Positions 11,017-51,632 of a stretch of 64,000 nucleotides of DNA are shown one piece after another. Location of the stretch: assembly GCA_034401795.1 (NCBI GenBank), contig CM067367.1, positions 49,020,485 through 49,084,484 on the forward strand, given 5' to 3'. Below the pieces are notes generated by a model. The model did no database searches, was not told where the DNA came from, and saw only the letters and a list, made by a program, of their open reading frames with translations. The position numbers were made by a program, and so were the translations under genes. Position 1 is the stretch's first letter, and each line of letters opens with the position of its first letter. This stretch comes from Chaetoderma sp. LZ-2023a (lineage: Eukaryota > Mollusca > Caudofoveata > Chaetodermatida > Chaetodermatidae).

Positions 11017-11031
11017 AAAAAAAAAAAAAAA

Positions 11032-26721: not shown

Positions 26722-26888
26722 ATGGATTCGAGTTTTGGATTTCACTGTGATCAGTTGTGTTTTCTCAGAGCTCTCTAATGTCCTGTATTTTCGGGAATAT
26801 TAAGTTTTTTGTGAATTTATGTTTGTGTTACAACTGTAAATAAGTTCTTGTTTGTGTACATTAATTGTCTGCCCTCGCCCTAGCCAGT

Positions 26889-27620: not shown

Positions 27621-27624
<4 letters not shown>

Positions 27625-27671
<47 letters not shown>
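27625..27671. repeat. (ATT)n microsatellite
   Basis: About 15 ATT units upstream of the first recognised MULE exon. Confidence 0.95.
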
Positions 27672-27673
<2 letters not shown>

Positions 27674-28044
27674 CATAGTAAAATCGCAAAATTTGAGCTT
27701 ATATCGCCCAGGTCAGTTTTGATTCGCACACAGGGTAATATCGCGCGCATACATGTATGTTGTTGGCTATTTTGAAACTGGTTTGACTGGGCGCTCTAAT
27801 TCCGCTTAACATTCGAACGAAAATGCACCACTAAGCCAGTTATTCCAGTGGTAAATTTTCAAAAATAGTCTTCACTTCGCCTGAAAATGGACATCGGATA
27901 AGCAAATAGTTAGATTTTTGGGGGGAAAATGTAGTCACTAAAGGGTTAAGTGAACTAATTAAATTTCATGTTCTTTTCCATAATATTAGTTAGTTTTTAA
28001 CTAAAATTCTCTTGATTATAATTTGTTAAAACTTTTTATTGCAG

Positions 28045-29083
28045 ACCGGACGAAGAAGACGAATGGGTATTCCACCCACGCGTTCACACCCACACCAACC
28101 TATCCGTGTATCGTTTGCAAAGTAAACTGCGTAACTAATTCCATTTTTTGTGGTTGTTGTGGTCGTTGGGTACATTATAAATGTGAAAATTTAAGCATAG
28201 GAGAGGCAACGACACTAAGATTAAGAATGACTATCTCTGCATCAAATGCACCCACACAGATGGTAAATTTGACTATAAGATGGCACATGATAGACTCACA
28301 ACGGCAGCAACTAAGAGCTACCGCATTCTGCAATCAGCAGTAGTACTTGAACAAATTCTACTTTGCTCGTCTCGTGAATTTAAGTCATTAACGCAGTTCA
28401 CTGGTGATTTTGAATTGGATGTTCCAAGTAAATGTATTCTTCTCAAAGTATGACAAGCCTCTTACGTGCAGCCCATCCGTGTAACAGCGGATGGGAATTG
28501 TCTGTTTAATGCAATCTCAATGTTGGTATCTGGCGACGAAGCATCATCCCTTGAACTGAGAATCCGAACAGCAATGGAAATGGTCGCGTTTGAACAACAT
28601 TACCGTGAGAAATGGGAGAATTCGGCTGTACACCTGGTTTCGCCGAACTATTCTGTCGCTGCTATTGACTGTTGTACGGACGGTCAGTATTCATCTGCCT
28701 GGACCATGATGGCAGCCGCGTCAGTCGTACATCGGGATATTAGATCCATATATCCAGCAGTAAATGGTCAGAATGACAAGAACATTGGTATCTTAAATGT
28801 CACCTTCGCCGCCCGTGAGCCACTAGACGGAAATGAAGAATTGCCAATAATGTGGACGTCGTGTTCCTCAGTTCTGCCAAAAGTGAATGCATGGAGACCC
28901 AACCACTTCATCCCATTGAGATTTAATCGAAACACTAATGACACCCCGCGTAAACGTTTATATTCCAAGGTATTGCAGAGCCCTCCACAATCACACTCGC
29001 TCAAAGAGCCACCATGCAAAAATTATCGTTCGTCCGCCCAGTCACCACGTGAGGAAAGACAAGTTTCGACACCAATGGAAAAG
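28045..29083 (+). pseudogene. MULE-associated exon: PHD finger plus OTU cysteine protease domain
   Basis: The acceptor TTTTTATTGCAG ends at 28044 and the donor AAG|GTAAGC follows 29083. The first part encodes a PHD-like C4HC3 finger: CIVC, CGCC, HYKC, CIKC. A one-base frame change is needed near 28200 between HYKC and CIKC. A TGA at 28451-28453 precedes the OTU domain. The OTU part has the catalytic ADGNCLFNAIS (Asp, Cys) and RPNHFIPL (His), so the deubiquitinase-type triad is conserved. A Pro/Ser/Arg-rich linker ends the exon. OTU domains cleave ubiquitin chains, and several transposon groups have acquired them. The frameshift and stop argue that this copy is dead, unless they are sequencing errors. 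Confidence 0.75.
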
Positions 29084-29339
29084 GTAAGCTACTGCTGTGT
29101 GGCTGCTACTACTACATCATTTCATAATTAGCATTTTCAAACGCATAACTTTATATTTTTAAACAAATTTGACTGCAGCAGCAACAGTTTCTTGTCACCA
29201 TTATTTTATTCACACCTAAGCCTATATGTAAACAGCATTCAATTAATTAAATAATCTCCAGAACCGCTGAACGGATCGGGCAGAAATTTGGCTCGTATGA
29301 TTAGGGACTGAGGGGCATTACATGTTGTTCAAGAGAAAT

Positions 29340-29341
<2 letters not shown>

Positions 29342-29370
<29 letters not shown>
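29342..29370. repeat. (AT)n microsatellite
   Basis: About 15 AT units in the intron between the OTU exon and the next exon. Confidence 0.95.
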
Positions 29371-29374
<4 letters not shown>

Positions 29375-29892
29375 CATGACCGCCATCGACCAATCAAAAT
29401 TCAGCATGATTGGCGGCCATTTTGGATTTTTTTATTTGTGGAAATTTGAAGCCGAAATTGTTTTTACATAGGTTGTTGGGTCTTCTTATTCCAAATTTGT
29501 CATTTTCAATACTCTCGGCCGAACGGTTTGACGGCCATCTTGGATCGTTTTCCCGCCAAAATTGTCAATGCTAAAGCAACTGGAGAATTGAATTGTCTTC
29601 TCAAGAAGAACTGGGCCGATTTCATTTAAATTATTTTTACTGCCGTTGTTAACACACATTCAATGATGGGTAGACTGGGCGGATAAAGAAGATTCCTACT
29701 GTAACCTCACATAATTCAATAAAATTGACAGCATTAATCCAACTTGATCAAATCTAAGAGGCTATTTAGGCTCTAAGCCACCTATAAGAGCTGGCTCAGA
29801 TAAGGTTCTCGTCTTAGCGACCGGGATGCTAGCCACTTGCCCCCCCCCCCACCCACCCACCCGATGCATCACCGCTTGCGGCTATATTTATG

Positions 29893-29931
<39 letters not shown>
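29893..29931. repeat. (ATT)n microsatellite at an intron 3' end
   Basis: About 13 ATT units ending 4 nt before the exon at 29936, in place of a normal polypyrimidine tract. Confidence 0.95.
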
Positions 29932-29932
<1 letters not shown>

Positions 29933-29935
29933 CAG

Positions 29936-30097
29936 TCCGGTGCTGTTAATGTCACATTTGACGTACCTGTATCACCTGTATCATTCGAAGTGTCTGGTCC
30001 TGAATTGCCACCAACTTCACGGCGCATAGGCCTCCCTGCATTTCCTCAACTGGATTCTTCAGACAGCGAAACATCTCCATCTACACCAAAGCCTAAG
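29936..30097 (+). CDS. MULE gene, small middle exon (54 codons)
   Basis: Acceptor TTCCAG|TCC and donor AAG|GTACGC; 162 nt, phase 0 on both sides, open in the phase-0 frame that follows the OTU exon. Encodes a Ser/Pro-rich linker ending QLDSSDSETSPSTPKPK. The next exon contains a similar QLDSSESETS, which suggests exon duplication. Confidence 0.65.
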
Positions 30098-30449
30098 GTA
30101 CGCTATGTGTTATCTCTTCATCTAAATGTTGTGTGTACTAGGTAGTGGGATATAAAGATTGATCTGTCCCGTATTATTATACTAATGAAATATATTATCA
30201 ACTGTAATGCCTCATATGCCTGCACACGGCCTGAGTGTAATGTAATGTAATAACGGGATTATTTTTGTTTTAAACATATTTTATTGGCGTTTAGAACAAT
30301 GGGATTGAGTCACAAGTCATAGACTTAGATATGACTATTTCCCTACACTATATTACACAGGCGGTATGTGGCTATAGAACATTTATGCAATATGTTGGAA
30401 TGCAATATTTACATATATATAATTGAAATTTTCTTGAAAAAATTAAAGT

Positions 30450-30554
<105 letters not shown>

Positions 30555-30633
30555 CGGTTAACCATTTAACAAAAATTTTAATTTTCAAAGAAAATGTTAA
30601 TTTGCCGACCAAGAGAAGACCGTCTCCGAAAAT

Positions 30634-30684
30634 TTACCACTGGAATGATTGGCTCGGTTATCGAGCCAGTCATTCCAGTTGTAA
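30634..30684. repeat. 51-bp palindrome
   Basis: TTACCACTGGAATGATTGGC faces GCCAGTCATTCCAGTTGTAA around a TCGGTTATCGA centre. Its arm is the motif dispersed elsewhere in the insertion. A C15 run follows. Confidence 0.85.
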
Positions 30685-31374
30685 CCCCCCCCCCCCCCTC
30701 CACCCCCACACCCCTTTCCAAAGATAAAGATTAGTTCGGTGTAGTAACATCACGATGCACCTTTCCAGTTTATCCATCCATCATATTTCGCCATACACAA
30801 CTCCGAGGCGTGTATGATGACGTCATTATCAAATACAGCGTGCACCACTCGATTTACACCGTCTTAAAACGCTTAATAGTCCGACATGTACGAATTGTAT
30901 GTTTTTCCTAATTAAGAAACATGATGTTGAATATTTTGAAACTAATCCCGCTGAGCGCCGGTGTCGCCATAGGCCGCAACGGCACCCGGTCAAACCAGTT
31001 TCAAAATACCCAACAGCAAACCTATATAGTTTTCTGAAAATTTATAGTCAGTGAGTTCAAGAACCGATCGATCCCAACGCGAACTAGCAATGCGCAAGGA
31101 CAGATTAATTCCTATAAACCAGAACAATACATAAATGTATTGTATCCGTGTGTGTCCGTGTGTGTCCTTATGATCATCCATTCATGTAGGTGTGTCGATC
31201 CATGACCATATAGAAAGTAATTTAATGTGCTCTGAAATTCGAGACTTATGCGCCGAATATTTGGAACTATATGGGAGCCAATACTTTGGTGATACGTTTT
31301 GCCACCTTAGGAGCTATTGATCTGAACACTTTTAACCTATGAGTGCGCCATGTTAGGCATCTGGACATGAAATT

Positions 31375-31375
<1 letters not shown>

Positions 31376-31462
<87 letters not shown>
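31376..31462. repeat. (ATT)n microsatellite at an intron 3' end
   Basis: About 28 ATT units followed by CCCCCCAG, directly before the transposase exon at 31473. Confidence 0.98.
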
Positions 31463-31463
<1 letters not shown>

Positions 31464-31472
31464 TCCCCCCAG

Positions 31473-33473
31473 AGAAATGCGTTCAAGAATACAATCTCCA
31501 GTCCAGAATCGCCACCATCTCCGCCTCTTCGTCAACTTGATTCGTCTGAGAGTGAAACATCAGAACTCAAAGATTCTGTAGGTTTAGTGAATAGGTCAGA
31601 TAATGTGGATGGTAATCCGAGCTTTACAGCAATAGAAGCACTTAAACCACTAACTGTACCGGGGAAATTCCTTGCAGTCGGTAAATTGTTTACGATTATT
31701 TGTGAAACGAATTGTTCAGAACCTGTAATACCCCGAGGAAAGAAAGAAAACGTGTTTGTAGTTGTGGGCAACAGTAACAACACTGATAAGAGACAAAAAG
31801 GTGATAAGCGTGACTTTGCGGATGATTGTGGTGTGTGGGATGGGGCAAAAGGTACAATGGCCAATTCTCACGTTGTTCTAGCCAACGGGCAATTGAAGCT
31901 AGTTGTGCTGAAAAATGGTGTTTATTGTACACAACACAGGGTTGACAGTAAAACAACATGGTTACCAATAGATCCTCAGCCAGCATCCTCAAGCATAATA
32001 AAGATGCATCGGTATTATACCAAGTTGAAAGGTGATAACAATTATAAGAAACGTGTAACCATTTTTGAACAGCTTCCAGATCAATATGACGACAAAAAGA
32101 ATTTCGCGATCGTTGAATACTGTGGCATAATAACATGCCATAGACTGCACGGTAATTCAAAGAAGGATGCCCCATACGAGCGTACCCGTCCTGCCATCTT
32201 AGAATGTGCAGGTAAGGAAGCAATCAGCAAACCACCCATGACAGTATATCACGAAATGGCCAAAAATGATTCAATTGACGCACCAAAAACATTTCGGCAA
32301 ATTAGGGACAAAAAATATCGCGAATCTAAAAAGAATGACAATTACGCGCATCGACAAAACCTTGCCGACGAAGTATTAGAAGTAATTGGCAAAGTTAATA
32401 CGCATCCATATGTACAACTAGTTATATGTACCAAAGGTAAACCTCCAAGTGTTATAATGTATTCAACTGAGCAGCTTCAAGACATGAAAAGAAATGTTAT
32501 AGGTAACAATGCTAGCGTAATTGATATAGACAGGACATTTAATTTGGGAACCTGTTTCGTTACCACGACTGTTTACAAAAGTAAGACAGTTGTTTCAAGA
32601 GAGTCAGGACAGTCACCTATTATGTTAGGTCCAATCTTTCTTCACTGGGATAGCATTTATGAATCATATCATTTATTTCTTTCACATGTTAAGGCTGTTC
32701 TCGGTACTGATCTTGATTTGCTGGGCCTTCGACTAGGAAGTGATGAAGAAAAATCACTTACCAAAACCATACACAGCTGCTTTCCAAATGCTAAGCATTT
32801 TTTATGCACTAAACACTTGAAAGATAATGTTAAACGTTATCTAATGGACAAGGTTGGTTGCTCTACCAAAGATAGGCATGCCATCACTGAGTTATTATTT
32901 GGACAGCATGGTGTTGCCAAGAGCAATGATTCGTGCATCTTTGATGAGCGCATTCATAATATAGCTACATATTTTGACAAATATCCTGCATTTGAAAGTT
33001 ATTTCAAGAAGCGACTCAGAGGCCTTATATGGGACAATGTGTGTGTACCAATGCAGGCTGGCACTGATGGTAACGATCTGTGGACCAATAATAATTCTCA
33101 GTCCCTAAACAACATCCTGAAATTAGCGACAGGGTGGAAACCACAGAAACTACCTGTATTAGTAGACAAAATTGCAGACATTATACAGCTACATATGAAT
33201 GATCTAAGACGAGCTTTGCATGGCACAGGCAATTATATGCTGACAGCAGCATATAAGCGATTTCTTGTACCAAGTGCTGTATGGTCATCCAAAACTAAGG
33301 AAGAAAAAGATAAACACTTCCTTAAGTTCCTAAGTGGAAAAACAGTTACAAGTAATTATATTAAAGCAACTAATGTTGAATTTGAAATTCCTGCAGTCTC
33401 ACCAAGGGCTGCTAGGAAACCGGGCCAGGTTAGACGTCTAAGGGCTGAAAAAGCCAGACCACGTAAGGTATAA
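31473..33473 (+). CDS. MULE-type transposase, main exon
   Basis: Open from the acceptor CCCCCCAG|AGAAATGCG to TAA at 33471-33473 (666 codons), in phase with the upstream exons. After a Ser-rich linker comes a DNA-binding-like region (about residues 100-250), then the DDE core. IDIDRTFNLG provides the first Asp, LGSDEEKSL the second, with the C-x2-H signature CTKH between them and the helical region. NNNSQSLNNILK follows. I expect a Glu near or within the last segment in active relatives, but could not fix its position. The block FNLGTCFVTTTVYK ... LGPIFLHWD is typical of this metazoan MULE family. No stop or frameshift is visible in this exon. Role: cut-and-paste transposition. Confidence 0.75.
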   Translation, partial: RNAFKNTISSPESPPSPPLRQLDSSESETSELKDSVGLVNRSDNVDGNPSFTAIEALKPLTVPGKFLAVGKLFTIICETNCSEPVIPRGKKENVFVVVGNSNNTDKRQKGDKRDFADDCGVWDGAKGTMANSHVVLANGQLKLVVLKNGVYCTQHRVDSKTTWLPIDPQPASSSIIKMHRYYTKLKGDNNYKKRVTIFEQLPDQYDDKKNFAIVEYCGIITCHRLHGNSKKDAPYERTRPAILECAGKEAISKPPMTVYHEMAKNDSIDAPKTFRQIRDKKYRESKKNDNYAHRQNLADEVLEVIGKVNTHPYVQLVICTKGKPPSVIMYSTEQLQDMKRNVIGNNASVIDIDRTFNLGTCFVTTTVYKSKTVVSRESGQSPIMLGPIFLHWDSIYESYHLFLSHVKAVLGTDLDLLGLRLGSDEEKSLTKTIHSCFPNAKHFLCTKHLKDNVKRYLMDKVGCSTKDRHAITELLFGQHGVAKSNDSCIFDERIHNIATYFDKYPAFESYFKKRLRGLIWDNVCVPMQAGTDGNDLWTNNNSQSLNNILKLATGWKPQKLPVLVDKIADIIQLHMNDLRRALHGTGNYMLTAAYKRFLVPSAVWSSKTKEEKDKHFLKFLSGKTVTSNYIKATNVEFEIPAVSPRAARKPGQVRRLRAEKARPRKV

Positions 33474-34050
33474 CTGAAATTTGTTCAAGATTATCGAGCC
33501 AGTCACTCCGGTTGTATATTTTCAAAAAATAGTCTTGTCTTGGCCTGTTTATAATTCTTGTGTCGCCTTAAACTGTAATGGTCAAGACGGCAAGAAACTC
33601 CCACTACAATGGTCTTAAGAATGTCCCGAATGTAACCGAACCAGCCATTCCAGTGGTAAATTTTCAAAAATACTATTCTCTTGGCCTGCAAATGGTTGCT
33701 GGCTAATAAAAAACTCGAACTTTCGTAACAATTTCCCCTTTGGTCGTCAACCTGGTCAAACACGTGCTCTGTGGTTGTCTTGAGGCCAGAAAACGATTTT
33801 GTAATATTCAGTGGTGAATTTACAAAAAAACAGTATTTCCTTGGCCTGCAAACAATATGATTTTATTGAAAAATCTTGGCAATTAACTGGTTAATTGATA
33901 TGAGCTGCAACCTGGGCGCTTTGAGGCGCTGTTGACATAAGGGTTACATTTCTCAAGACCATGACAGAAGCCGTTTTGAATGAGTATTGAGTATTAATTT
34001 ATAGTTAAAACTGCTTGCATGTGTATGTACGTGCGTGGTCTCTACCTCTC
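33474..34050. other. Non-coding 3' region of the MULE insertion
   Basis: Three diverged copies of the CCAGTGGTAAATTTTCAAAA motif lie here (about 33493, 33640, 33810), each followed by CTTGGCCTG. No gene is seen. Confidence 0.5.
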
Positions 34051-34340
34051 CGGCTTCATCTCCCTCACCCCACCCACCCCCCCCCCACCCCACCCCACCC
34101 CCCCCCCCAACCCCACCCCCGACCCTCCCTCTCCCTCTCTCTCACTAAAGAGTATTATAATATAATTGTGCTAAACTCATGCTATAATACACTTTATATT
34201 CACTATTTTGTGGCTTCATCTCCCTCCCTCACCCCCCCCCCCACCGCCCGACCCTCCCTCTCCCTCTCTCACACTTAAGAGTATTATAATATAATTGTGC
34301 TAAACTCATGCTATAATACACTTTATATTCACTATTTTGC
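34051..34340. repeat. 160-bp tandem duplication, C-rich
   Basis: GGCTTCATCTCCCTC plus C-runs plus AGAGTATTATAATATAATTG through TTCACTATTTTG occurs twice, starting at 34051 and 34211, the second copy shorter in its C-run. Confidence 0.85.
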
Positions 34341-34777
34341 TCTAGATGTACTACTTGTCATTGTGCTATAAATTACCACTTAATTTGTATTTTGCACTCA
34401 TGGTTTTATTGATTTGTTATTCATTAAAATATGAATATCCATTAAAATTCTTCCTTGTTTATTTATATCCACGCATGTATCATCATAGTTATGCTGAGAC
34501 GTCATAGACAGACAGTAATGTAGCAATAATGCACATACGCACGCACGCATTATGCATACACACACGCACATATTGACATAGTTTCCCAACTATAACAAGA
34601 GCATTCAGAGACCGCAAACACATGCAATGACAACTGTAGGCTACCGGTATATGTATCATGTCCCTGAAAAAGACTAGCGATCTGCATTCTAGAGTCCACA
34701 TTTTCCCACATGTTCACTTTCTCTGAACGATCTACAAAAGTCTGGTGACAGATCTAAAGAAAGTGTATTCATAAAAT
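34341..34777. other. Non-coding sequence near the right edge of the MULE insertion
   Basis: AT-rich with ACGCACGCA-like simple sequence at about 34538-34570; no gene or recognisable element. Confidence 0.4.
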
Positions 34778-34852
34778 GAGTCGTTATGGGTCGTGAAGTC
34801 GTTATGGGTCCATTATGGGTCGTTATGGGTTGTTATGGGTCGTTATGAGTGA
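34778..34852. repeat. GTCGTTATGG minisatellite
   Basis: Six or so imperfect copies of GTCGTTATGG at the right edge of the insertion, directly before LINE ORF1 resumes. Confidence 0.85.
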
Positions 34853-34862
34853 TTCGTTGGAC

Positions 34863-35746
34863 CCCTCATGTATGATGATTATTAATGACTCTGTTGTTGT
34901 ATCATTTATGGACATGCCAGCTTATTTAGAAGATGACATTATTATTAAGAAATTAACAGATCTGGGAGTAGAAATAAAATCTGACTTGATCCGTAGAGTG
35001 TACCGTGGTACTAATATAGCAGATGGGACTCAAAATGAGATTGATACCTGTAATGAAGATGGTGACCGTGACGTCGATATGGAGATTGGAGCAGCTGGAG
35101 CGATGATTGATGTGACTGATGTAATTGATGTGATGGTTCATGAGGGGGATGAGTGCGTGTTAAGTGAGAATGCTAGTAATGACATGTTTGATAAAATCTC
35201 AAGCAGTGCAGGTGATGAGTACACGTCAAATGAAGATGTTATTGACAATGCTGCCATTAATAAAGACAGAAAGAAGAAGAGAAAACGAAAGAAACACACA
35301 ATTGTAAAGCCTGCAAAGCGTCTAGTTGAGGAGCTTAACAAAGGTGAGCAATGTTCACAAACTATAGAAGTTTGTCAATCAAATAACAATGAACCTGTGA
35401 GTGAACTGATTGGTAAGCAGGTGAGCGATATTGATATTACTACCGCGGCGGCGGTACGCTTGTGAACACTAATTATGTTGTCGCCGTGGCTCAAGTGGTA
35501 ACTGCGCGAATTGTGGATCCACAGGTCGAAGGTTCGCTTCCCAATCCGGGTGAAAATAAAACTAATGTTTCGGGCCAGATTTGTAAGTCTACGTCGGAAA
35601 ATAAATTAGATGTGGATGATATGTTTTCAGAAGATATCACCCGGTGCCTAAAACATCAGTTCAGTTCCACCAAGTGACATAGTTTTTAGGCAAATTGTTG
35701 CCCCATTTAATAAGGGCAAAGGTCGTGGAAAACCTCTGCACACATA
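34863..35746 (+). pseudogene. LINE C ORF1, C-terminal part lacking zinc knuckles
   Basis: Resumes with MMIINDSVVVSFMDMPAY. After GTNIADGT it jumps directly to an acidic QNEIDTCNEDG segment, skipping the whole CCHC region that LINE A and E have at this point, without losing frame. A lysine-rich block RKKRKRKKHTI is shared with LINE E. A stop at 35463-35465 and two frame changes follow before the conserved KGKGRGKPL C-terminus. Confidence 0.75.
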
Positions 35747-35755
35747 GGCTTAATC

Positions 35756-38700
35756 ATGGATATCACATTTGTTATATTTTCCTTTTTATTAATCATGTTA
35801 AAGATACCATCTTTAAACACTAATGGTTTGAGAAATTGTGACAAATGTGATACAATATTTGGCTTTTTACAGGTTTGGAATTATGATGTTATTTTACTGC
35901 AAGAAACATTTTGGGATGATAATTTGGCTTTGTATTTTACTGGGAAATGGGATGGTGACATTTATTTTAGTAATTTTGATAATAATAGAAGGGGAGTTGC
36001 AATACTTGTTAAAAATGATATCAAGCACAAATTTAAATTTGTTACTAAAGATACTGAGGGAAGGTTTGTTCATATTAATTATGAAACTGGTGATGAAATT
36101 GTAAATATCTTTAACATTTATTCACCCAATGAAAGAAGAGAAAGAAGCCAATTTTTTAATTTTGTTAATAATAAAATTGCTGAATTCGAAAATATAATTC
36201 TGGGTGGTGATTTTAACTTGGCTTTGACAGCTTTAGATAGAAGACCAAAAGCTAACTTTGTACGGGACTGTTCACATGACATGCTCTATGAGCTTGTGAC
36301 TAAACATCAGTTAGCTGATGTTTGGCGTGACAGATATCCATTGAGAACTGTCTTTTCAAGAAGTGCTATTGTCCTAGGTGAATGTTCCCAAAGCCGCCTA
36401 GACTATTTTTTAATCAGCAAACAATTATCTGCTAATGTAATTTATACTGGCTATAAATACACAACTCTGAGTGACCACGCTTGGGTAGAACTATCAATAG
36501 ATTTTAATAAAGCTGAGCGTGGACCAGGGTTGTGGATTTTCAATGGCACTTTGCTCACTGATCAACTTTATAAAGACGCTATTGTTGATTTAATTGAACA
36601 GAAGAAAAACTGCCCATTGTATATAGAAGATTTTTTTACATGGTATGACAATCTAAAATTTTATATTAAGCAAATGTCACAAAACTTTGCAAGGAAACAG
36701 ACAAACATAAAAAAATGCAAGATTTACAAATTTTGCTTGAAAGAGAATTTGGCAGGAAAAAGGTTAATGTTGAAAAAATTACAGATTTGGAAAATGAATT
36801 ACATGCCTTGGAAACTGTGATTTGCAATGGCGCTATCCTCAGATCCAAATCCCAATGGGCTTTGGAAGGGGAGAGAAGCACTAAATTCTTTTTAACCCTT
36901 GAAAGGCAGCGCCAAGAAAATAATGTCATTAAGTGTTTATTTGATAAGGGTAATAACACTGTAACGGATCCGTATCTTATAATGCAAAGAATACACGAAT
37001 TTTACTCTGATTTGTATAAATACTCAGACATAAATCATGATGCCCTGAACAATATATTAAATAACATCAGTAAGGTGTCGGAGAATGAAAAGAAAATGTG
37101 TGATGATAGTATTAAAACAGATGAAATTAAGACAGCAGTTTTTGCTATGAAAACTGGTAAAAGTCCAGGAAAAGATGGTCTTACTGCTGAATTTTATCGG
37201 ACATTTTATGATATATTTCAACCATTATTTGTTAGACTTTTTAACCAAATAGAGCAAAATAATATCATGCCTAGAAGCATGCGACGCGGTGTTATTTCAC
37301 TTGTTTATAAAAACAAAGGGGATAAAAGGGACATTGCAAATTTCCGTCCAATTAGCCTATTAAATGTTGATTACAAAATTTTGGCCAAAATTATGGCAAA
37401 CAGGTTAAAGCATGTCCTTCCTTTTATTATTAATCCTAATCAGACATGTTGTGTTCCAGGGAGGGATATTTCTGATAATGTTTTTAATATTCGGGTTGTA
37501 ATTGATTATGTCGAGTACACACAGTCGCAAGGGTTTTTAATTAAATTTGATCAAAGAAAAGCTTTTGACTTGGTGTCCCACAAGTATCTTTTTGAAACTT
37601 TAAGGAGATTTGGCTTTGGGGATAAATTTGTCAATTGGATTTCTATACTTTATACTGATATTTCTAGCTGTGTGAAATCCAATGGGCATTTAACTTCTTA
37701 TTTTCCTGTTCAAAGATCTGTTCGACAGGGATGTCCAGTTTCTGCCATGTTGTATGTCATTTGTGTCGAACCATTGGCACGTTTATTTCTAACAGATTCT
37801 TCTATTCAGCCTATATTGATCAGTAATGTAAACAGTTCATTAATTTATCAACATGCTGATGATACCACTATTACAATTAGAAATGAGTCATCTGTGTTTA
37901 ATTCATTAGAATTATTTGATGTATATAGCAAAGCATCAGGTGGTGAAATTAATTATAACAAGACTCAAATCATGGCATTAGGTACATCTGTGGTATCACA
38001 GCAGATTGCAAGAAAATTAACAGTCCAAGATGACCATATAGAAATATTAGGTGTGTGCGTTGGAAAAAATAAATTAACATGTGAACAGAAAAATTGGGAT
38101 AATAAGTGTCTTGGCATTCGAAGAATTTAAAATTTTTGGAAAATGAGAAACATTAACATACAGGGGAGAGCAATTGTCATTCAATCCTTATTACTGTCCA
38201 AATTATGGTACATGTTAAATGTACAGCCAATCCCTGATAAAGTTTTAACCTCCATCCAAGAAGCCTGCATTGCATTCCTATGGAAAGGCTCACATTTGGT
38301 TAAATATAATACGATCATTGGTCGTAAATTAGAAGGGGGCCTAAATATTCCTGACATAAAGTTAAAAATGAAGGCATTCAGAATGAAAATGTTAAATCGC
38401 TTTTTTAATAATGAGCGTCAAATGACATGGATGTATGTTTTTAAATTCTTCTTGAATGAATATAAAGGACTAAACATTGGAACATCAGTACTGTTTATGA
38501 AACTCACAGCCCATGATGTTTCATTTATGCCACCTGTACATAGGCAAATGATTATGGCCTGGTATGCAATTAGAAATTGCTCTGATGTTATTGTTTCAGC
38601 TTGGGATATGATTGTGAACCAACCTTTATTTCATAACCATAAGATTACTTTAGCTGATCACCCCTTAAGATGCGTTGAATATGAGCAAGCAGGTGTCGTA

Positions 38701-39606
38701 TTGATAAAGGATATTTTGTATGAATTTGTGCCTGGATTTTTACCTGCTATCGCTGTTTCTGAATTAGTTCAGGATAAAATTGATGTGGATATAATTAAAA
38801 TTGAAAAAATGTATAATATTTTGTTGCAAGCCATTCCACATGAGTGGATATGTGTAATTGAGCATGGCAAACCTGAGCATGAAGACACTTCTTTCTGTAT
38901 TAAAACTGATAACCTTACAATTGCATTTGGAGGTTTAAAATCAAAAATATTTTATGATTTGTTCCGGCAAAGTCAATTTGAAATACCAACATCTGCTGCA
39001 TTCTGGGACAATTATTTTACAGAAATTGAACAAATTAATATGTGGCCCTTAGTCTATTTACCACTGAAGCCGCCGGAGTTAATCGATCTTGATTTTAGAA
39101 TTACTCACAATTGTATTTTTACCATGGTGAAACTACTACGGATTGGAAAAACAGATAACAATGTCTGTCCTGTGTGCAAGTCCCAACCAGAGACAATGTT
39201 CCACCTGTTTTTAGACTGTAGTGAACTGTCTGAATTGACATCAGTTTTAATGGATATGCTTGAAACTTTATTTCAAAATTTATCACAACAGCAATTGAAT
39301 GAAATTAACCTTAATCTAGCAAGATTGGTCGGTGTTGACAAATCTTTTAAAAGTGTGAATATCCTCTTTGTTAATCTACTTCTTAGCATTTATCGGTATT
39401 GTGTTTATATACGCAGACAAATTGCTATGAAATACGACAAGATCATACCCATGTTGGCATATTTTAAGAAGAAATGTAGAGTAATTATACTCCAAATTTA
39501 TACTTACAATAGGGAACATGAACGAGAGGATAAAAACATGAAACTGCTAATGAATAATACATTATTGAAAGTAGGGAATGATAATACATTACATATTACA
39601 TTTTAA
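35756..39606 (+). pseudogene. LINE C ORF2: endonuclease-reverse transcriptase, one frameshift and one stop
   Basis: Starts at ATGGATATCAC with a hydrophobic leader before LNTNGLRN. Endonuclease motifs: LQETFWD, GGDFNLA, SRLDYFLIS, LSDHAW. RT motifs: KFDQRKAFD, QGCPVSAMLY, QHADDTTI. C-terminal finger CPVCKSQPETMFHLFLDC. Only two lesions are seen: a shift in an A7 run near 36708-36715 and a TAA at 38128-38130 where LINE A and E have Leu. It is the best-preserved ORF2 of the window in number of lesions. Confidence 0.88.
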
Positions 39607-40996
39607 TATCTAATCAATTTGTTACTCATTGCTGTTTTAACCTCATATATGGTTTTATTTTATTTCATCTGTGATTAATTTTGCGTATGTTAACAGCAAT
39701 CAGTTGTGTGTGAATTATAATGGCGAGTTACTCAAGGGAGGTAACCCTTTAACTACCCTTTAAATCTGTTTGTGCTCACCTAGTCATACAATTCTATGTT
39801 AGCTAAGGCTATATTAAATTTAAAATTGTGATACACACTCTTTTAGGAGCTAATTTTAATCTTTTAAAAATGCTCTAGTGTTGTACAGTCTCGTAGAGTT
39901 TGCATAATTATTTTAAAACATAGTGTTTTAAGTATTCACACTGTATTTATTATTATTAATAAAGTTAGGGCAATGATGATTGAAAGCTTTATTAAAATAA
40001 TTGTAAAATATCATTGGGCACATCAGAGTCACTGACCAATCCAAATTACAAAGATGTACAGAAGCATGCATGATTGGATCTTGTCTGATTAATTAAATGC
40101 TTAAGGTATGATTGACTGGTTAACTGCATTAACACCTGCTTAGAAGAATGACTGAAATTGCTTGTTTGTCTTGATGTTTGTTCAGTCCGGGCGATCGGTA
40201 GGCTGGGATTCTGGTTTCAATATTCGGGATTATTTATTTCCATATTTAGTTTGGAGTCTTGGATCTTGAGTCTTGAACGGCCGATCGCTTGGATCTTTTG
40301 GATCGCGCAGTTCATCGGTCGGTTAAGTAAGCAATTGAGTGACTGGTGTGTTTGATAACTTGACCGTTTCAGTATTCGCTTGCTTATTTACTTACTAGAT
40401 TGATTGATTTATTGATTTATTGAGTAATTAAGTGATTGAGTAATTGAGTGATTGAGTAATTGAGTGGATGATTGATTGATTGATTGATAGATTGATTGAT
40501 TGATTGATTGATTCATTGATTCAGTGAATCTATGGTGTGTGGCTGGGTGTGACGTTTGTGGCAAGGGGTGGGCGATGGTAGATGGAAGCGGGTGGTTTGG
40601 TGTGTGTAGATTGGAAATTGATTAACTGATTGAATGTTTGAGTGACAGATGGGTGGATGGATGGGTCAGTGGGAGGTTGGGTGGGTCACTTGTTTGATTG
40701 ATTGAATTTTGGGCTGCTTGATTATTTGGTTGCTAGATTAATTGGATGCTTGAGTGATCTAACTGACAGGTTAATTTGCTGTCCTAGGAAACTTCTCCTT
40801 CTTTCGGTTTCGTGGAGAAGCTTCCATTTTTGGACAATATTCTGATTCTCGTCATGTTAGACAGGCTGACCTCTCCTCTGTTTTCGATTTCGTCAGAGGA
40901 GAGGAGGGATGCCTGAACGTAGATGTGCATACTCTGAAATGTGTTTTAATAATGATTGGTAATTACATTCGAAATAGCTTTCATACTGAGCCAAGG
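39607..40996 (+). other. LINE C 3' UTR
   Basis: Contains TGATTGAT-rich simple sequence (40400-40515), a G-rich stretch (40556-40690) and two stem-loops near the end: 40787-40825 (GGAAACTTCTCC facing GGAGAAGCTTCC) and 40870-40904 (CCTCTCCTCTG facing CAGAGGAGAGG). It ends TGAGCCAAGG-A(n), as in LINE A. Confidence 0.75.
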
Positions 40997-41011
40997 AAAA
41001 AAAAAAAAAAA

Positions 41012-41057
41012 TGGTCTCGTAAACCAGGGGTCGTGATTTCGATCCTCACTGGGGGCT
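41012..41057 (+). pseudogene. 3' part of tRNA-Thr(CGT) flanking LINE C poly-A
   Basis: TGGTCTCGTAAACCAGGGG directly follows the poly-A; the T arm has GTGATTTCGATCCTCAC. Together with 26689-26721 it completes one tRNA. Confidence 0.85.
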
Positions 41058-41126
41058 CGCTGGGTGGTAAACTATACAATTAAAGAAGTGATAAAGTTAG
41101 TAAATGCAATAAAATCTAAGAAGTCA

Positions 41127-45335: not shown

Positions 45336-45358
45336 GCCTCCATAGCTCAGTGGTTAGA
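45336..45358 (+). pseudogene. 5' part of tRNA-Thr flanking LINE E
   Basis: GCCTCCATAGCTCAGTGGTT ending AGA at position 23 of the tRNA, where LINE E begins. The remainder is at 51581. Confidence 0.85.
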
Positions 45359-45540
45359 ATGGGGATTCTAGATTTAGCCTTCAATGAGTGAAGACCTATT
45401 TTCTTGAGCTCTCTGGTGTTTTCTATTTTCGGGAATTGATGTTTTGTTTTGTGTTTGACTTTTGTGTATATAGTGAAGCATAGTTTATGTAAATAAGTTG
45501 TTTGTTTAACTGTGGTGCTTCTCCCCACTCACCTACCGCC

Positions 45541-47586
45541 ATGGCAGAGGGTGGTGGGCGTGCTAGACTGCCTGGGCGTGTCCAGAATAGTAGGGATATT
45601 GTACAGAAGCGTGTTTATGCTAAGGAACATACAGTTATTACATTAGTATTTAGAAGATTGCGTGGCGACATGATCGAGTTATATAAAATTCTCAGCAATA
45701 AATATGACCAAGTTACTGCAGACCTTATTGAGCGACAAGACACAAATAGCATAACTCGAGGCCACAGCCTAAAAATTAAGAAAATAAGACCAAGACTCAA
45801 TATACGAAAGTTTTCTTTCCCGTTGCGCTGTACTGATCAATGGAATAAACTACCCGAATCCGTTATCAGCGCCCCCTCAGTGAATTCTTTCAAAGCTAGA
45901 CTAGACAAGCTATGGGAAAGTCATCCATTGCGCTATAACTACGACTGTGAACCCATCTGTAATATTTATACACCAGAATCATTATAACATAGCCAATGTA
46001 TAATTGTTAATAACAACTTAATAACATTAAAATGAACCATAAATATATGCAGCCCATTCCTGACGTTAGAGGCTTGTTGACGCCTGCTGTCAGTAGAGGA
46101 TTCGTATAAGTTCGTATAAGTTATAGTAGATGTAGGTGACATTTATAATGTGAGTGCAAAGGATGTGATAACTGCAGTGGAAGGTATGACTGGAATTGCG
46201 TCGGTATTTGCGTGTGTACCCAGACAGAGGAATTGCTATGAACTGACTGTTGCTAATGCTGACGTTGTAAGGATAATAGAACCTGGACTACAATGTAACA
46301 ACAATGAATACCAAGTAAGTAAAGTCGTTAATGACTATATTATGGTGTCATTTCTGCATCTACCAGCATATGTTACTGATGATGACATTAGAGCAATATT
46401 GTCAGTTTATGATATTGAGGTTGTTTCAGACATATTCTGAAGATGTCATTCCAATATTAATGTCACAGATGGCACTAGGTACATGCGCTGTAAATTTCCG
46501 CCAAGTATTAAATCTCTCCCATACTCTATGAAATTTGACACAGTGAATGGGAAGGAGTTCTTCAGAGTGATCCATAATGACCAAGTGCGTGTGTGCAAAG
46601 TTTGCATGAGTGATGAACATATTGCGAGGGATTGCCCAAATGTTGAATGTTACCGGTGCCATGGCCGTGGACATTTATCATTTCAATGTAAGACAAGGCT
46701 GTGTCCTGACTGTCACCTGAGTGAACAGCGTTGTCAATGTTATACTAGTGACCATGATGAGGAGGCTGTAAATGATCAGGTATCAGACGAGGTCGGTGAT
46801 CATCAAGCAGGAGCGTCTGCTAAGGTTGGAGACAATAATGAAAATGTAATGATCATTGATAACAATGAACCAGTTGCAGAGCCGGATAATGAACGGGTGG
46901 CTGAAGATAAGGGTCACGAGATGGATGAGTTAGACTTGGCTGATGACGATGATAGCTGTGGCGATGTTAGTGAGATGGACGAGTGTGGCGAGAATAACAA
47001 TACTTCTGACAGCGGTAGTGATAGAGATGACAGCAATTCAGGTGGAAGTGTACCTCCCAAGGTCAGTAATAAGCAAAATAAGAAAAGGAAAAGAAAACAG
47101 AAAAAACTAAATAAGCCTGACAAACGATTGAATGATTCTGTTCTAGACAATGGCGAAAAGTGTTCAAATAATGTTGAAGTATGCCAGAATGTAAGCCAGG
47201 TGAGCGATACTGTCGCAGTGTTGAATAATAATCAAAGCGTCGTGGCCGGCGGCGCTGACGGCGGTGACACGAATAACCCTATTGTTCCCATGGCTCAATC
47301 AGTATGTTATCCGACTTCAGATCCACAGGTTGAAGGTTCGTGTCCCGCTGCTGACACAGCCAAAAGTAACAAAGTAACTAAAGAAAATAATATGATAAAT
47401 AATGATCCAGAAAATGTAGATGTTACTAATAATACACCTGCTGAATTAAATATAACACCAATTCCATTAAGTGGTGCTTCTGTCCCAGCAAGTGATATTG
47501 TACCAAGAGCTTTTGTGGCCAATTTTAACAAGAATAAAGGGAGGGGAAAGTCACTTAAAAAGCCTTGCAATGAATCATTTTATTAA
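45541..47586 (+). pseudogene. LINE E ORF1, interrupted by a CR1-like fragment and one stop
   Basis: Begins ATGGCAGAGG in the context CCGCCATGG. The N-terminal AKEHTV block is cut by the insert at 45639. It resumes in frame after 46124 with VDVGDIYNV. A TGA at 46438-46440 interrupts the SDIF/RCHSN region. Zinc knuckles CKVCMSDEHIARDC and CYRCHGRGHLSFQC and the cluster CPDCHLSEQRCQC are intact, followed by an acidic region, a Lys/Arg-rich block and the conserved NKGRGKSLKK end. The last 17 bp overlap ORF2. Confidence 0.82.
45639..46118 (+). mobile_element. 5'-truncated CR1/Jockey-like LINE fragment inside LINE E ORF1
   Basis: 480 bp flanked by AGTTAT at 45633-45638 and 46119-46124 (6-bp target duplication). 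It encodes the C-terminal end of a different LINE ORF2: RRLRGDMIELYKIL, RGHSLKI, WNKLPESVISAPSVNSFKAR, then a stop at 45985-45987. It ends in two copies of TTCGTATAAG instead of poly-A, as is usual for CR1-type elements. Frame happens to stay open across the left junction. Confidence 0.8.
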
Positions 47587-50500
47587 TTTGTTAATTATTG
47601 TAATAATTACATTCAAACTAAATATTACTTCCATAAATGTAAATGGCTTGAGAAATGAGGATAAGTGTAACAGATTATTTGGAACTTTAAATAATCAGAA
47701 CTATGACATCATTCTATTGCAAGAAACATTCTGGGATGATAAGCTGGCTATGAAATATTCTGGAAATTGGAATGGAGAGATTTATTTTAGTAATTATAAT
47801 AATAATAGACGTGGGGTGGCGATACTGATTAAAAATGATATAAAACTTAAATGTAAATTAATTACTAAAGATATTGAAGGACGCTTTATACATGTGCAGT
47901 ATGAATGTGAGGACATGATAGTTAATATTTTAAATATTTATGCACCAAATGAATTGAATGAAAGATGTGAATTCTTGAAATTTGTAAACAATGGTATGGC
48001 TGATTTGAATAATATCTTGCTAGGGGGTGATTTTAACATTGCTATGACTGCATGTGATAGGAAGCCAGCAGTTAATTTTATCCATGACCGTTCACAAGCA
48101 ATTTTAAATGATCTTGTTGTTAGTAACCATTTAACTGACATTTGGCGTGATAGGTATCCATTCAAACGTGTTTATTCAAGGAAAGCTATTGTTCAGGGTA
48201 ACTCGCTTCAAAGCAGGATTGATTATTTTTTAATCAGTAATAACATTGCGCCAAATGTCCTGTTTACTGGTTACAAACTTTCAGGGTTTAGTGACCATTC
48301 TTTTGTTGAATTGGTGATTGATTTTAATTCGGAAGAAAGGGGTCCTGGAATGTGGGTCTTGAACAACAGTTTACTAACTGATGAATTGTATAAAGAAGGA
48401 ATAAGACAGTTAATTCTGAAAAAATGGCATGCCCTTTGTATGAGCAATGTTTTACTGTATGGTATGATAACCTGAAGTATTTTATTAAGAAATATTCTCA
48501 GCTATTTGCTAGAAAGCAAGCAACAAATAAAAGGCAGCACATGAAATCATTACAAATTGAACTACAACAGGAATTAAATAAGAATACACCTAATGTTGAT
48601 CAGCTTGCTAGATTAGAGGGAGAGTTGGAAAACCTTGAAAATGAGGTGGCCAAAGGGGCAATTTTGCGTTCAAAGGCACAATGGTCTATTGAAGGTGAGC
48701 GAAGCACTGCTTATTTTCTTGGGTTAGAAAAACAGAGACAAGAAAATAATGCAATTAATTGTTTGTATGGTGGGGATGGGGCCATTTTACTGGATTGTTT
48801 TGGAATATTAACTAGAATACATGAATATTATGACAATCTTTATAGTCATAGAGATGTTGATAACAATGCTATTCAAAATATTTTATCAAATGTTGATGTT
48901 AAAATTTCAGATGAAGATAAAGACAGTTGTGATTATGACATCACAGCTGATGAAATAACTAGCGCATTATTTTCAATGAAAAATGGAAAATCGCCTGGTA
49001 AAGATGGAATTACATCTGAATTTTATAAATGTTTTTATGATATTTTTCAGCCAATTTTTACTAAATTGTTTAAGGAAGTAGAACAAGATGAAATCATGTC
49101 ACAAAGTATGAGAAGGGGGATAATTACATTGGCATACAAACGGAAGGGAGATAAGCGTGAGATTGCCAACTATAGGCCAATTTCTCTTTTGGGGGTGGAT
49201 TATAAAATATTAGCAAAGATTATGGCTAACAGATTGAAACAGACATTGCCAAGTATTATTAATGAAAACCAGTCATGTTGTGTACTGGGAAGAGATATTT
49301 CTAATAATGTATCCAATATTCGAGATGTTATGGAGTATGTTGAATATACTCAATCACAGGGTTTTTTTATTAAAAGTTGACCAGGAAAAAGCATTCGATC
49401 AAGTGTCTCATAAGTATTTATTACATTTTGGATTTGGCGATCGCTTTGTTAAATGGGTTAAAATTATGTATACAGATATTTCAAGTGCTGTTAAGAATAA
49501 TGGCCACTTAACTTCATATTTTAATATTACCAGGTCTGTCCGTCAAGGATGTCCAATTTCAGCTTTATTATACATTTTAGCTGCAGAACCATTGGCTAGG
49601 TCTTTTATGAAAGCCAATGAAGCAAGTCATATTAAAGGTATTGAAATTGTTGGGTCATCAGTGGAATCATTAATATACCAGCACGCTGATGACACAACAA
49701 TCACAGTTACTGAGGAAGCTGCTATAGAGAAGTCATTAGAATTGTTTTCTATTTATTCTGCTGCTTCTGGAGGCAAAATCAATTATAACAAGACAGAATT
49801 GTTAGCCCTTGGTGCAGCACAGATAGGTCCCACCTTGGCTAGAAAGATCAAGGTACAGAGTGAAAATATTGTGGTACTTGGTGTTTGCTTAGTGAAAAAT
49901 AAATTAATATGTGAGCATAGTAACTGGGACTCAAAGGTTAAAGATATTAAACGTTTGTTGAACATGTGGAAACTAAGAAAAACAACAATTAAGGGGAGAG
50001 CAATAGTCATTCAAGCATTATTAATGTCTAAACTATGGTATATGCTAAATGTGCAACCAATGCCTCAGTGGGCCATCGATGGTATTAAAACAGCCTGCAT
50101 AGATTTTTTATGGCGTGGTGCACATTTGGTTAAATATCATACCATTATTGGTCAAACTAGCCAAGGTGGGCTTAACCTGCCCGACATTACCATGAAGAAA
50201 TGGGCATTTAGAATGAAAATGATTAACAGATATTTTGAAAATGACAGCAAATTGCCCTGGGTGGCAGTTTTTAATTATTTTTTGAACCAGTATAAACAGT
50301 TGAATCTTTCACAGAGCTTTCTGTTCATGAAATTACCAATATCTGCTTTTAATTATATGCCTGTTTTCTTCCAAGAAATGATTTTGTCTTGGTATGAATG
50401 TTTAAAATCAGCTACTATTGAGATAAGTCACTGGAACATAATAATAAGTCAGCCCTTGTTTCATAACCCTAGGATAATAATTGCTGAGAAATCCTTATCT

Positions 50501-51436
50501 TGCGATTTCTTTGAAGCGTGTAATGTGTCAAAAATAAGTGATATAATTTATGAATTTATTCCTGGATTTTTGCCTACAGCAGCTGTAATTGAGCTGATAC
50601 AATCATGTGAAGAGGATCATGATGAAATTAAAATTGAAAAAGTACATCAAATTTTATTGCAAGCCATTCCACAAGAGTGGATTACTGTGATAAACACTGG
50701 AAATATTAAATCGGAGCTTCAAAATTCTACAGAATTATCCATTGGCTTGAATTCATATACACTGGGTAGGCAAAAATCTAGGTTATTTTATGGACTTTTC
50801 AGAGATAAGGCTGCGCTACCACCAACATCGTATACTTTTTGGGTACAGGTGTTTCCTACTATTGACATTTCCAAGCTCTGGCATGTGAATGGAAATATAA
50901 AACCACCAGACTTAACTGAACTTGATTTTCGGATTTTGCATAACAGTATATTCACAATGGAAAAGTTGTATAAAATTGGAAAGGTTGAGACACCATTGTG
51001 TCCTGTGTGTAAAGCACAAAACGAGTCATTAATTCACTTGTTTTTAGATTGTACTGAGTTACATGATTTTAAAGTTTTAATTCTTGATTTATTTGAAATT
51101 TTATCAAAGAATCTGTCACAAGATCAATTAGGCTACCTTAATTTTGATGGCCTTATTTTGTGTGGGCTGCATAAACAGTTTTCAAATATGAATTTCCACT
51201 TCACAAATTTGTTATTCAGTATTGTTAGATTTTGTATTTTTACTCGTAGGCAAGTAGCTGTACAGCACAACAAAGTAATTCCATTGGTTGCATATTTTAA
51301 AAAGAGATATTGTGCTATTCTAGATGCTATTTTCCATTACCATATTGAGAAAGGTAATGAGAATGTTGTTAATCAACTTTTAAATAATAATGACATGGTA
51401 CGTGTTCAAGGTAAAGATGTGCAGGTTTTATTGTGA
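47570..51436 (+). pseudogene. LINE E ORF2: endonuclease-reverse transcriptase, two frameshifts
   Basis: Starts at ATGAATCATTTT with a hydrophobic leader before INVNGLRN. Endonuclease motifs: LQETFWDD, GGDFNIAM, SRIDYFLIS, SDHSFV. RT motifs: VDQEKAFDQVSHKYL, QGCPISALLY, QHADDTTI. C-terminal CPVCKAQNESLIHLFLDC. Shifts occur in an A6 run near 48418-48424 and a T7 run near 49360-49368. A deletion of about five residues follows KYLL relative to LINE A and C. No in-frame stop was seen apart from the shifts. Confidence 0.88.
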
Positions 51437-51580
51437 AACAAAATAAAAGGTAAACAATTACTGAATTTCATATTGCCATTTTAATTGATTAGTTATTGAG
51501 GCGTTTGTACTTTTTGTTTCATTTTAAATTATCAATTTGACCTATGTGAAGGAAAAATACACTTTAAAAAAAAAAAAAAA
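51437..51580 (+). other. LINE E short 3' UTR and poly-A
   Basis: About 130 bp, AT-rich, without the G-rich tract or stem-loops present in LINE A and C. A15 at 51566-51580. Confidence 0.75.
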
Positions 51581-51632
51581 GAGCACTGGTCTTGTAAACC
51601 AGGGGTCGGGAGTTCGATCCTCCCTGGGGGCT
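51581..51632 (+). pseudogene. 3' part of tRNA-Thr(TGT) flanking LINE E poly-A
   Basis: GAGCACTGGTCTTGTAAACC through TGGGGGCT; every remaining stem pairs. With 45336-45358 it would make a complete tRNA. Confidence 0.85.

Follow-up and report, generated by a model that had tools for sequence, protein, structure and literature searches.

Families A, C, and E in Chaetoderma make up one LINE clade, which very probably places its insertions within tRNA genes of many isotypes, landing in the D arm at or just beyond box A of the internal Pol III promoter, with Pol III recruitment as the suggested means. That they target tRNA genes in general is close to certain. Outside the window, the 64,000-nucleotide stretch of DNA analysed as a whole, 81 3' junctions were read in the 2.44-Gb genome. 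Of these, 79 fall inside tRNA genes, one in a 5S rRNA gene, and one just 3' of a tRNA-Leu. Target-specific LINEs are recognised by nearly all copies occupying one class of site in one orientation; here 80/81 junctions are in tRNA or 5S genes, and the LINE has the same orientation as the tRNA at all 79 tRNA junctions. The preliminary description of the window proposed that a LINE lineage, here of APE type, inserts specifically and in one orientation into a tRNA gene. This is thereby upheld, but the choice of tRNA-Thr as the target is not.

That description reported four LINE 3' ends running from an A tail into tRNA-Thr. The junctions of LINEs A, C, E, and a truncated copy are all present, no more than 1–2 nt from where they had been placed (Table 1). 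LINE E was said to follow tRNA position 23 and LINE C to lie six bases further, which agrees with an E flank of positions 1–23 and resumption of the tRNA after C at position 28, TGGTCT. A TGGTCT duplication brackets LINE C, and a 2–3 nt duplication, (A)GA, brackets LINE E. The four are not segmental duplicates of one insertion, as the flanks differ and the ORF2 pieces of A, C, and E share only about 40–60% identity, which marks them as different families. The truncated copy belongs to family A and represents a second A insertion, since it lies in another tRNA-Thr variant than LINE A. The left end of LINE A is in satellite spacer ~250 bp downstream of an intact tRNA-Thr, and is without tRNA sequence. 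The LINE C interval spans 14.3 kb and must therefore contain other material. Within LINE E, a ~480-bp stretch (about 45639–46118) is absent from six relatives read whole, and the A tail starts about 1.0 kb short of its place in the 6.76-kb genomic relatives. The window also carries an LTR-retroelement protein.

Table 1. LINE-related features of the window, in window coordinates.
Feature	Position	Strand	Basis
LINE A (left end approximate)	4352..11030	+	RVT_1; similarity to E and C; motifs; left end placed by eye
LINE A ORF1	4441-6141	+	
LINE A endonuclease pieces	6138-7630	+	
LINE A RT	7634-9262	+	Pfam RVT_1
LINE A right flank, partly deleted tRNA-Thr (CGT) from 21/22	11031..11055	+	
5'-truncated family A copy with A tail	13797..14161	+	98.8% to A over 347 bp
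Truncated copy right flank, tRNA-Thr (TGT) from 21/22	14162..14213	+	
LINE C left flank, tRNA-Thr 1-33	26689..26721	+	blastn
LINE C interval, exceeds element length	26722..41011	+	
LINE C ORF2 pieces	35714-36817, 36670-38127, 38131-39603	+	similarity to A and E; Pfam; motifs
LINE C right flank, tRNA-Thr from 28, TGGTCT duplicated	41012..41058	+	blastn
LINE E left flank, tRNA-Thr 1-23	45336..45358	+	blastn of tRNA-Thr
LINE E, disrupted copy	45359..51579	+	comparison with genomic relatives
E ORF1 part, CCHC zinc knuckle	46441..47583	+	Pfam zf-CCHC
E ORF2 part, APE-type endonuclease	47471..48472	+	Pfam Exo_endo_phos 1.6e-12
E ORF2 part, RT and zf-RVT-like end	48394..51433	+	Pfam RVT_1; zf-RVT below cut-off
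E RT part in two frames	48394-49377, 49238-51433	+	
LINE E right flank, tRNA-Thr from 21/22	51580..51632	+	blastn

The encoded proteins identify these elements as APE-type LINEs of L1/Tx1-type organisation. ORF2 consists of an APE endonuclease followed by a reverse transcriptase (RT), ORF1 contains a CCHC zinc knuckle, and the elements end in A tails. Pfam detects Exo_endo_phos, RVT_1, and zf-CCHC domains, and catalytic motifs are matched in the ORF2 pieces. The best PDB match of ORF2 is human L1 ORF2p (2.6e-22), with R2 at 5.1e-5, and a Pfam scan up to E 1 found no restriction-like endonuclease domain in ORF2. A tree of 111 rows unites A, C, and E in one clade with support of 100/99. The Tx1-group label of the preliminary description is plausible from the combination of APE, RT, and CCHC ORF1 and from the L1 ORF2p match, the 111-row tree having no named Tx1 reference. 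Keno, Mutsu, and Dewa are members of the Tx1 clade. Among the matches listed, Mytilus (38% identity) and Patella (35%) supply the top-scoring named ORF2 proteins and Solemya ranks lower; in the tree, the Mytilus ORF2 relatives belong to the sister group. No relatives were confirmed in collections of genome contigs and viral contigs. The 3' ends of family A are identical over 116 bp in 35/40 copies, the window's own included, and this near-identity marks the copies as recent. Both ORFs are open in 4/10 E copies examined (ORF1 535 and ORF2 1325 codons, stop to stop). A 3'-terminal hairpin of the CCTCTCC...GGAGAGG kind seems to be present in all three families, judging by eye and from folds. It is not strictly needed, as two early-polyadenylated variants without it reached tRNA genes.

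The genome survey scored the 40 best copies per family from 134, 93, and 59 candidates. As it comprises best-scoring samples and exact-terminus counts only, older copies could differ. In family E, 37 junctions were resolved among 39 scored copies, with 36 in a tRNA body and one just 3' of tRNA-Leu; this count omits L007, which is masked, and L004, whose 3' end is lost. All 38 junctions of family A were resolved, 37 in tRNA genes and one in 5S (copy L092, Rfam E = 0.0011). Six of the 39 family C copies outside the window were read and 33 left unread; all six are in tRNA genes and none in tRNA-Thr. Rfam reached E 0.1 for 7/19 partial tRNA stretches tried, and the remaining partial calls were made from the anticodon arm and T-loop or by eye. 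E relatives that appeared to run past the tail without a tRNA were rejected as exceptions, since their true ends ~1 kb further on lie in tRNA genes and the appearance is explained by early polyadenylation of the window's E. The 3' tRNA was also considered as part of the element and rejected, as it differs with each array. A motif test located exact element termini in the genome and then the T-loop motif GTTCRA at tRNA distance. The motif follows 34/34 termini in C, 36/43 in A, and 20/27 in E, with 0/34 for a scrambled motif (family C only). Of the 14 termini lacking it, 10 read as tRNA or 5S, one lies beside a tRNA, and three are unread.

The targets cover 16 amino acids. Besides Thr they include Ser, Leu, Phe, Asp, Tyr, His, Gln, Val, Cys, iMet, Arg, Glu, Lys, Ile, and Pro. 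Junctions concentrate in the D arm/box A, with 76/79 at tRNA positions 8–26, 65/79 at positions 16–25, and 31/79 at the single bond T20/A21. There are 54 distinct combinations of family, anticodon, and position, 51 of them at 8–26. Secondary spots besides T20/A21 depend on the isotype. Several isotypes are hit at one spot by different families, namely Val at 22 by all three, and Gln and Glu at 22, Asp at 17, and His at 8/10 by A and E. Agreement between families is incomplete, with Gln at 22 but 25 in C, Glu at 22 but 23 in C, Tyr at 24 but 22 in C, Lys at 22 but 10 and 24 in A, and Arg-TCT at 22 but 46 in E. In family E, four junctions miss the D arm, lying at positions 29, 38, and 46 and immediately 3' of the gene; LINE C in the window, at 28, misses it too. 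Target duplications range between 3 and about 75 bp in length, with several at 14–16 bp. The left and right flanks derive from different tRNA genes in copies L009, L018, L048, and L003, while the left flanks of L012 and L020 are without tRNA, like that of LINE A in the window. L004 has tRNA-Gln as its 5' flank and non-tRNA sequence where the 3' end is lost. A single event gave rise to four E copies in tRNA-Tyr by duplication.

A LINE specific for tRNA-Thr was suggested by the window, where 4/4 copies are in that gene, presumably because the window lies in a tRNA-Thr array. The preliminary description would have taken more than 80% of copies genome-wide at tRNA-Thr 22–31 as confirmation, but copies on other chromosomes contradict it, and only 7/79 tRNA junctions outside the window are Thr, three of them in uncertain, decayed Thr-like genes. 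This refutes Thr specificity for A and E, and with 0/6 for C the idea has virtually no remaining probability. Near-random insertion followed by survival or detection only in redundant tRNA arrays is very improbable. Of the six E loci read whole, four do show tRNA genes in tandem arrays, in which losing a gene costs little. However, tRNA genes make up only 6–25% of four array stretches (ARAGORN, intact genes only) and 9.7% of the window satellite, yet 80/81 junctions are in the gene itself, which also bears out the earlier view that the clustering exceeds chance. Insertions into spacer would be at least as harmless, retention would not explain a single orientation with 65/79 tRNA junctions within ten positions (16–25), and the near-identical A copies have had little time for selection. 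Equally improbable is the spread of one or a few insertions as tRNA arrays underwent duplication, gene conversion, or recombination. Copies L041, L043, L044, and L049 are duplicates and some flanks are mismatched, but the many distinct combinations of family, anticodon, and position, the unlike duplication lengths, and the three separate families argue against it as a general account.

The more serious alternative is that a DNA-binding surface of ORF2 reads the box A/D-arm sequence (GGTT/A core) directly, without a Pol III factor. This is a possibility, though the less likely one. The bond hit most often lies within GG(T)T/A, two or three families coincide in their spot for several isotypes, and the 5S case is a single copy with GGTT a few bases on. 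Dada transposons also hit the A-box region, and their author attributes this to primary sequence (PMC8869645). Against this, families A and E are each found in many isotypes whose D arms differ, including targets without GGTTA such as Phe (GGGAGAG, junction at 10) and iMet (GGAAG), and one 5S gene was hit. The nick context is degenerate, with 28 contexts counted exclusive of isotypes whose upstream half was not seen (Asp, Ile, Pro, Arg-ACG, and Leu-AAG among them), and Pfam shows no additional DNA-binding domain in ORF2. Recruitment by Pol III components is therefore somewhat favoured over direct sequence reading. Whether this animal clade reads the identity of a gene bound by Pol III machinery rather than its sequence, inserting ~20–25 bp past the start of any such gene, be it a tRNA of almost any type or at times 5S, is evenly balanced.

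Under Pol III recruitment, the promoter, or TFIIIC, TFIIIB, or Pol III bound to it, would draw the element ribonucleoprotein to Pol III genes. The APE endonuclease would then nick the template strand at a loose, roughly 5'-YT^R-3' step, and the resulting 3' end would prime reverse transcription of the A tail (target-primed reverse transcription). The duplication would come from a cut in the second strand, frequently about 14–16 bp from the first, and loss of one gene may be tolerable in tandem tRNA arrays.

Known LINEs find their targets either through strict reading of the sequence (R1, R2, Tx1) or, as in social amoebae, through a tether next to Pol III genes. Both modes are united in a LINE that occupies tRNA genes of 16 amino acids and addresses a whole gene class with near-nucleotide precision. 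Such a LINE would show a parasitic gene choosing its landing site in a new way. The question of sequence or Pol III complex becomes directly testable in an animal element with open-ORF copies. The insertion sites form a natural record of where the Pol III complex may expose DNA, the tandem arrays suggest one way to survive the destruction of essential genes, and an integrase-free route to multicopy sites is on offer.

A search of the open-access literature, with Repbase, preprints, and most subscription papers outside its scope, found among the papers listed no LINE whose insertions fall within tRNA genes of varied isotypes. In the papers examined, tRNA-associated LINEs land beside tRNA genes or in one isotype. 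Three single-isotype elements, NeSL-1_TV (Pro), LIN15_SM (Arg), and LIN25_SM (Glu), are described with the NeSL clade, which has a restriction-like endonuclease (PMC4640811). They share tRNA genes as targets with the Chaetoderma LINEs, but the latter use APE and hit 16 amino acids. Keno targets U2, Mutsu 5S, and Dewa a tRNA-Leu spacer, and the Keno endonuclease is APE-like (PMC4640811, PMC3706591). These are likewise aimed at small RNA genes or spacers, each at one defined target, whereas the Chaetoderma LINEs take tRNA genes in general. Dada-t DNA transposons also have their insertions within tRNA genes, in the region of box A or the anticodon, and another Dada group inserts in 5S, with each family bound to its own RNA gene (PMC3706591, PMC8869645). 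They differ in having a DDE transposase and 6–7 bp duplications, in contrast to the RT and APE, A tails, and mostly longer duplications in Chaetoderma. The dictyostelid TREs are also LINEs with an APE domain that insert at tRNA genes generally, with TRE5 also at 5S, and TRE5-A targeting has been linked with both TFIIIB and TFIIIC (PMC5911963, PMC5006619, PMC5391098). TRE5 inserts ~47 bp upstream, TRE3 40–150 bp downstream, and NLTR-A 2–6 bp upstream (PMC5911963, PMC5006619, PMC5391098). Thus TRE5/TRE3 and NLTR-A/B insert outside the gene, whereas the Chaetoderma LINEs insert inside the tRNA sequence (79/81), and do so in an animal genome.

All four LINE 3' ends of the preliminary description are present in the window sequence. 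The flanks of LINE E, and likewise those of LINE C, form one tRNA-Thr gene across both sides, as had been stated, whereas for LINE A and the 5'-truncated copy (13797..14161) the gene is found on the 3' side only. The ORF2 pieces of A, C and E are only ~40–60% identical to one another and, judged by sequence, the three are therefore separate families. The truncated copy belongs to family A (98.8% identity over 347 bp) and sits in another tRNA-Thr variant. LINE E of the window has broken ORFs and carries ~480 bp (45639-46118), absent from six genomic relatives read, that is probably a nested insertion. An ORF inside the LINE C interval (28454-29128) has weak similarity to OTU cysteine proteases. 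Among the other features, the MITE-like insert interrupts the other tRNA-Thr of the satellite (between positions 28 and 29) and is not clearly flanked by a target duplication, and a weak Sina zinc-finger match lies at 17907-18737 within the Ty3/gypsy-like region.

Further sequence features of the window
Feature	Position	Setting or strand
Palindromic MITE-like insert, ~91 bp	3597-3687, 15700-15790, 41437-41527, 43973-44063, 44910-45000, 52672-52762	many satellite units
Tandem unit, 2722 bp, with two intact tRNA-Thr genes (TGT and CGT)	57729-63245	
Ty3/gypsy-like retroelement pieces (gag-like, aspartyl protease, RT, RNase H)	17907-24604	minus

The proposal of a single family specific to tRNA-Thr genes does not extend to the 2.44 Gb genome, where Thr is one of 14 tRNA kinds found behind the E tail. 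The kind varies by array: Ser, Leu, Phe, Asp, Tyr, His, Gln, Val, Cys, iMet, Arg, Glu, Lys and Thr. Family E was sampled as the best 40 of 134 candidates scored, 39 of them outside the window; these are recent copies, 93–99% identical at the 3' end, and extend beyond the polyadenylation point of the window's E. Full-length E is ~6.76 kb and terminates in ...CCTTCCAATGAGCC plus an A tail. The 3' flank was resolved in 37 of the 39 outside loci (L-numbers), with 36 in a tRNA body, including L021, which lacks an A tail, and one only a few bases past the 3' end of a tRNA-Leu (L014). The other two are L007, which is masked, and L004, which has lost its 3' end and has its 5' flank within tRNA-Gln. 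A second E copy at L046, outside the scored 40, also ends in tRNA-Leu (AAG). Early-polyadenylated E variants, namely the Tyr group (L041, L043, L044, L049, duplicates of a single insertion) and the window's copy (51568), are still in tRNA genes although ~0.76 kb and ~1.0 kb of the 3' UTR, respectively, are missing together with its hairpin.

Families A and C share this target class. For A, the best 40 of 93 candidates were scored, and 35/40 3' ends, the window's own among them, are identical across 116 bp. All 38 outside the window were read, giving 37 tRNA junctions and one in 5S rRNA (L092), where an 81-nt query covering part of the 5S gene matches the Rfam model from position 22 (E 0.0011, 29.8 bits vs a gathering score of 38). 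For C, with the best 40 of 59 candidates scored, 6 of 39 outside the window were read and all six are tRNAs (Glu, Arg, Gln, Val, Tyr, Pro). Most targets were called by a script using the anticodon arm and T-loop; the remainder, including decayed genes (L008, L012, L022, L072, L082, L096-L098) and intron-bearing Tyr, were called by eye. When 20 stretches from family A were scanned against Rfam (E ≤0.1), seven returned tRNA, one 5S and 11 nothing, with a spurious tmRNA match in L073; as cut-off fragments score poorly, Rfam supports the tRNA calls but cannot alone establish every one.

Exact family termini followed by an A run, as returned by genome search, number 27 for E, 43 for A (two in the window) and 34 for C. 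GTTCRA, the T-loop/box B core, follows at tRNA distance in 20/27, 36/43 and 34/34; reversed control patterns gave 0 matches for each type, as did a scrambled motif for C. The seven A-type misses comprise five read tRNAs whose T-loop is altered or missing (L079, L084, L096 and two in the window), the 5S copy and one unread (C11:162462866). The seven E-type misses are four read tRNAs (L016, L017, L040, L048), L014 and two unread (C14:103687477, C2232:23163). By reading or motif, the 104 copies thus divide into 99 tRNA, one 5S, one beside a tRNA and three unread, with many of the 99, including 28/34 C copies, called from the motif alone. One such motif-only C-type tail lies within L048 (8775-9717), where a further C-like copy enters a tRNA-Cys gene. 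The window's C variant with two Gs has two exact copies, its own and C8:71421600, the latter outside the 104-copy tally.

Position within the tRNA, in conventional numbering, was counted from the anticodon stem with a hand-made table, terminal As being indistinguishable from the tail. The tRNA junctions read outside the window start at positions 8–26 in 76/79 cases, at 16–25 in 65/79 and at T20|A21, the bond between positions 20 and 21 in the D arm/box A, in 31/79. Counted as distinct combinations of family, anticodon and position, 51 of 54 fall at 8–26 and 19 at T20|A21; the outliers are L017 (46), L018 (29) and L040 (38). The preferred spot varies with isotype and is often the same across families: Val at 22 in A, C and E; Gln 22, Glu 22, Asp 17 and His 8/10 in A and E; Cys at 15–18, with L021 (E) and L101 (A) at the same spot. 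Family C deviates at Gln (25), Glu (23) and Tyr (22 vs 24), and Lys and Arg-TCT spots also vary. Orientation is fixed: downstream of the tail the tRNA is in sense orientation in 79/79.

Left ends were located in 25 of 35 paired E copies. By eye, 23 have tRNA sequence within 90 nt before the element and 20 start inside the tRNA; L012 and L020 lack tRNA sequence over those 90 nt. Exact target duplications found by script measure 3 (L017), 5 (L028), 9 (L024), 14 (L022, L026), 15 (L025, L010), 16 (L006), 23 (L015) and 33 bp (L045), some of these lengths including an A or two possibly derived from the tail. Shorter or off-set matches were discounted (L003, L012, L014, L019, L020, L027, L040), and the script found none for L002, L009, L013, L018, L047 and L048. 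Duplications read by eye are 14 (L047), 26 (L021) and about 75 bp (L013); L040 has lost about 10 bp of target. Different tRNA genes flank E at L009, L018 (left/right Glu/Tyr), L048 (Glu/Thr) and L003 (two Leu types), which probably reflects recombination between arrays, or alternatively cuts in two genes.

Array content does not account for this distribution. Intact tRNA genes make up 6–25% of array DNA (15% over four stretches, ARAGORN), and tRNA makes up 9.7% of the window satellite (blastn), far below the 80/81 read junctions inside a tRNA or 5S gene. The single orientation and one dominant bond exceed this null further still.

ORF2 encodes an APE endonuclease with its motifs and an RT, and ORF1 has CCHC knuckles. 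In four of ten E copies examined (L032-L035), ORF1 (535 codons) and ORF2 (1325 codons) overlap and are both open from stop to stop. Among solved structures, human L1 ORF2p matches best (2.6e-22), ahead of R2 (5.1e-5). An RT tree of 111 rows places A, C and E in one clade (support 100/99) that also contains an unnamed protein almost identical to C; Mytilus proteins fall in its sister group, for which support is weak (89/58). As all three targeted lineages fall in this clade, the specificity most plausibly predates their split.

Target class, position, orientation, duplications and recency are observed, whereas the mechanism is inferred. Recruitment of the element through the Pol III promoter, or through factors bound there, is the favoured explanation, since a single family takes tRNAs of many isotypes plus one 5S gene despite a weak context at the nick. 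Among 28 contexts, T precedes the junction in 16 and A follows it in 20, the latter inflated by assigning ambiguous As to the target. The initiation complex would then set the distance into the gene; with start sites at their usual places, tRNA position ~21 and 5S position ~22, the latter from a single copy, both lie some 20–25 bp in, as expected. Direct reading of box A is a serious rival to such recruitment.

In the available text of open-access papers, among the matches listed (including PMC3747384, PMC10294476 and PMC10886601), no LINE targeting tRNA genes generally from within appears. LINEs with tRNA-Pro, -Arg or -Glu as targets are catalogued in PMC4640811, and Dada transposons are described in PMC3706591 and PMC8869645 as occupying specific tRNA genes, in many cases at box A. 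Dictyostelid LINEs, of which TRE5-A is linked to TFIIIB/TFIIIC, lie outside tRNA genes according to PMC5911963, PMC5006619 and PMC5391098, whereas the A/C/E clade inserts inside the tRNA body.
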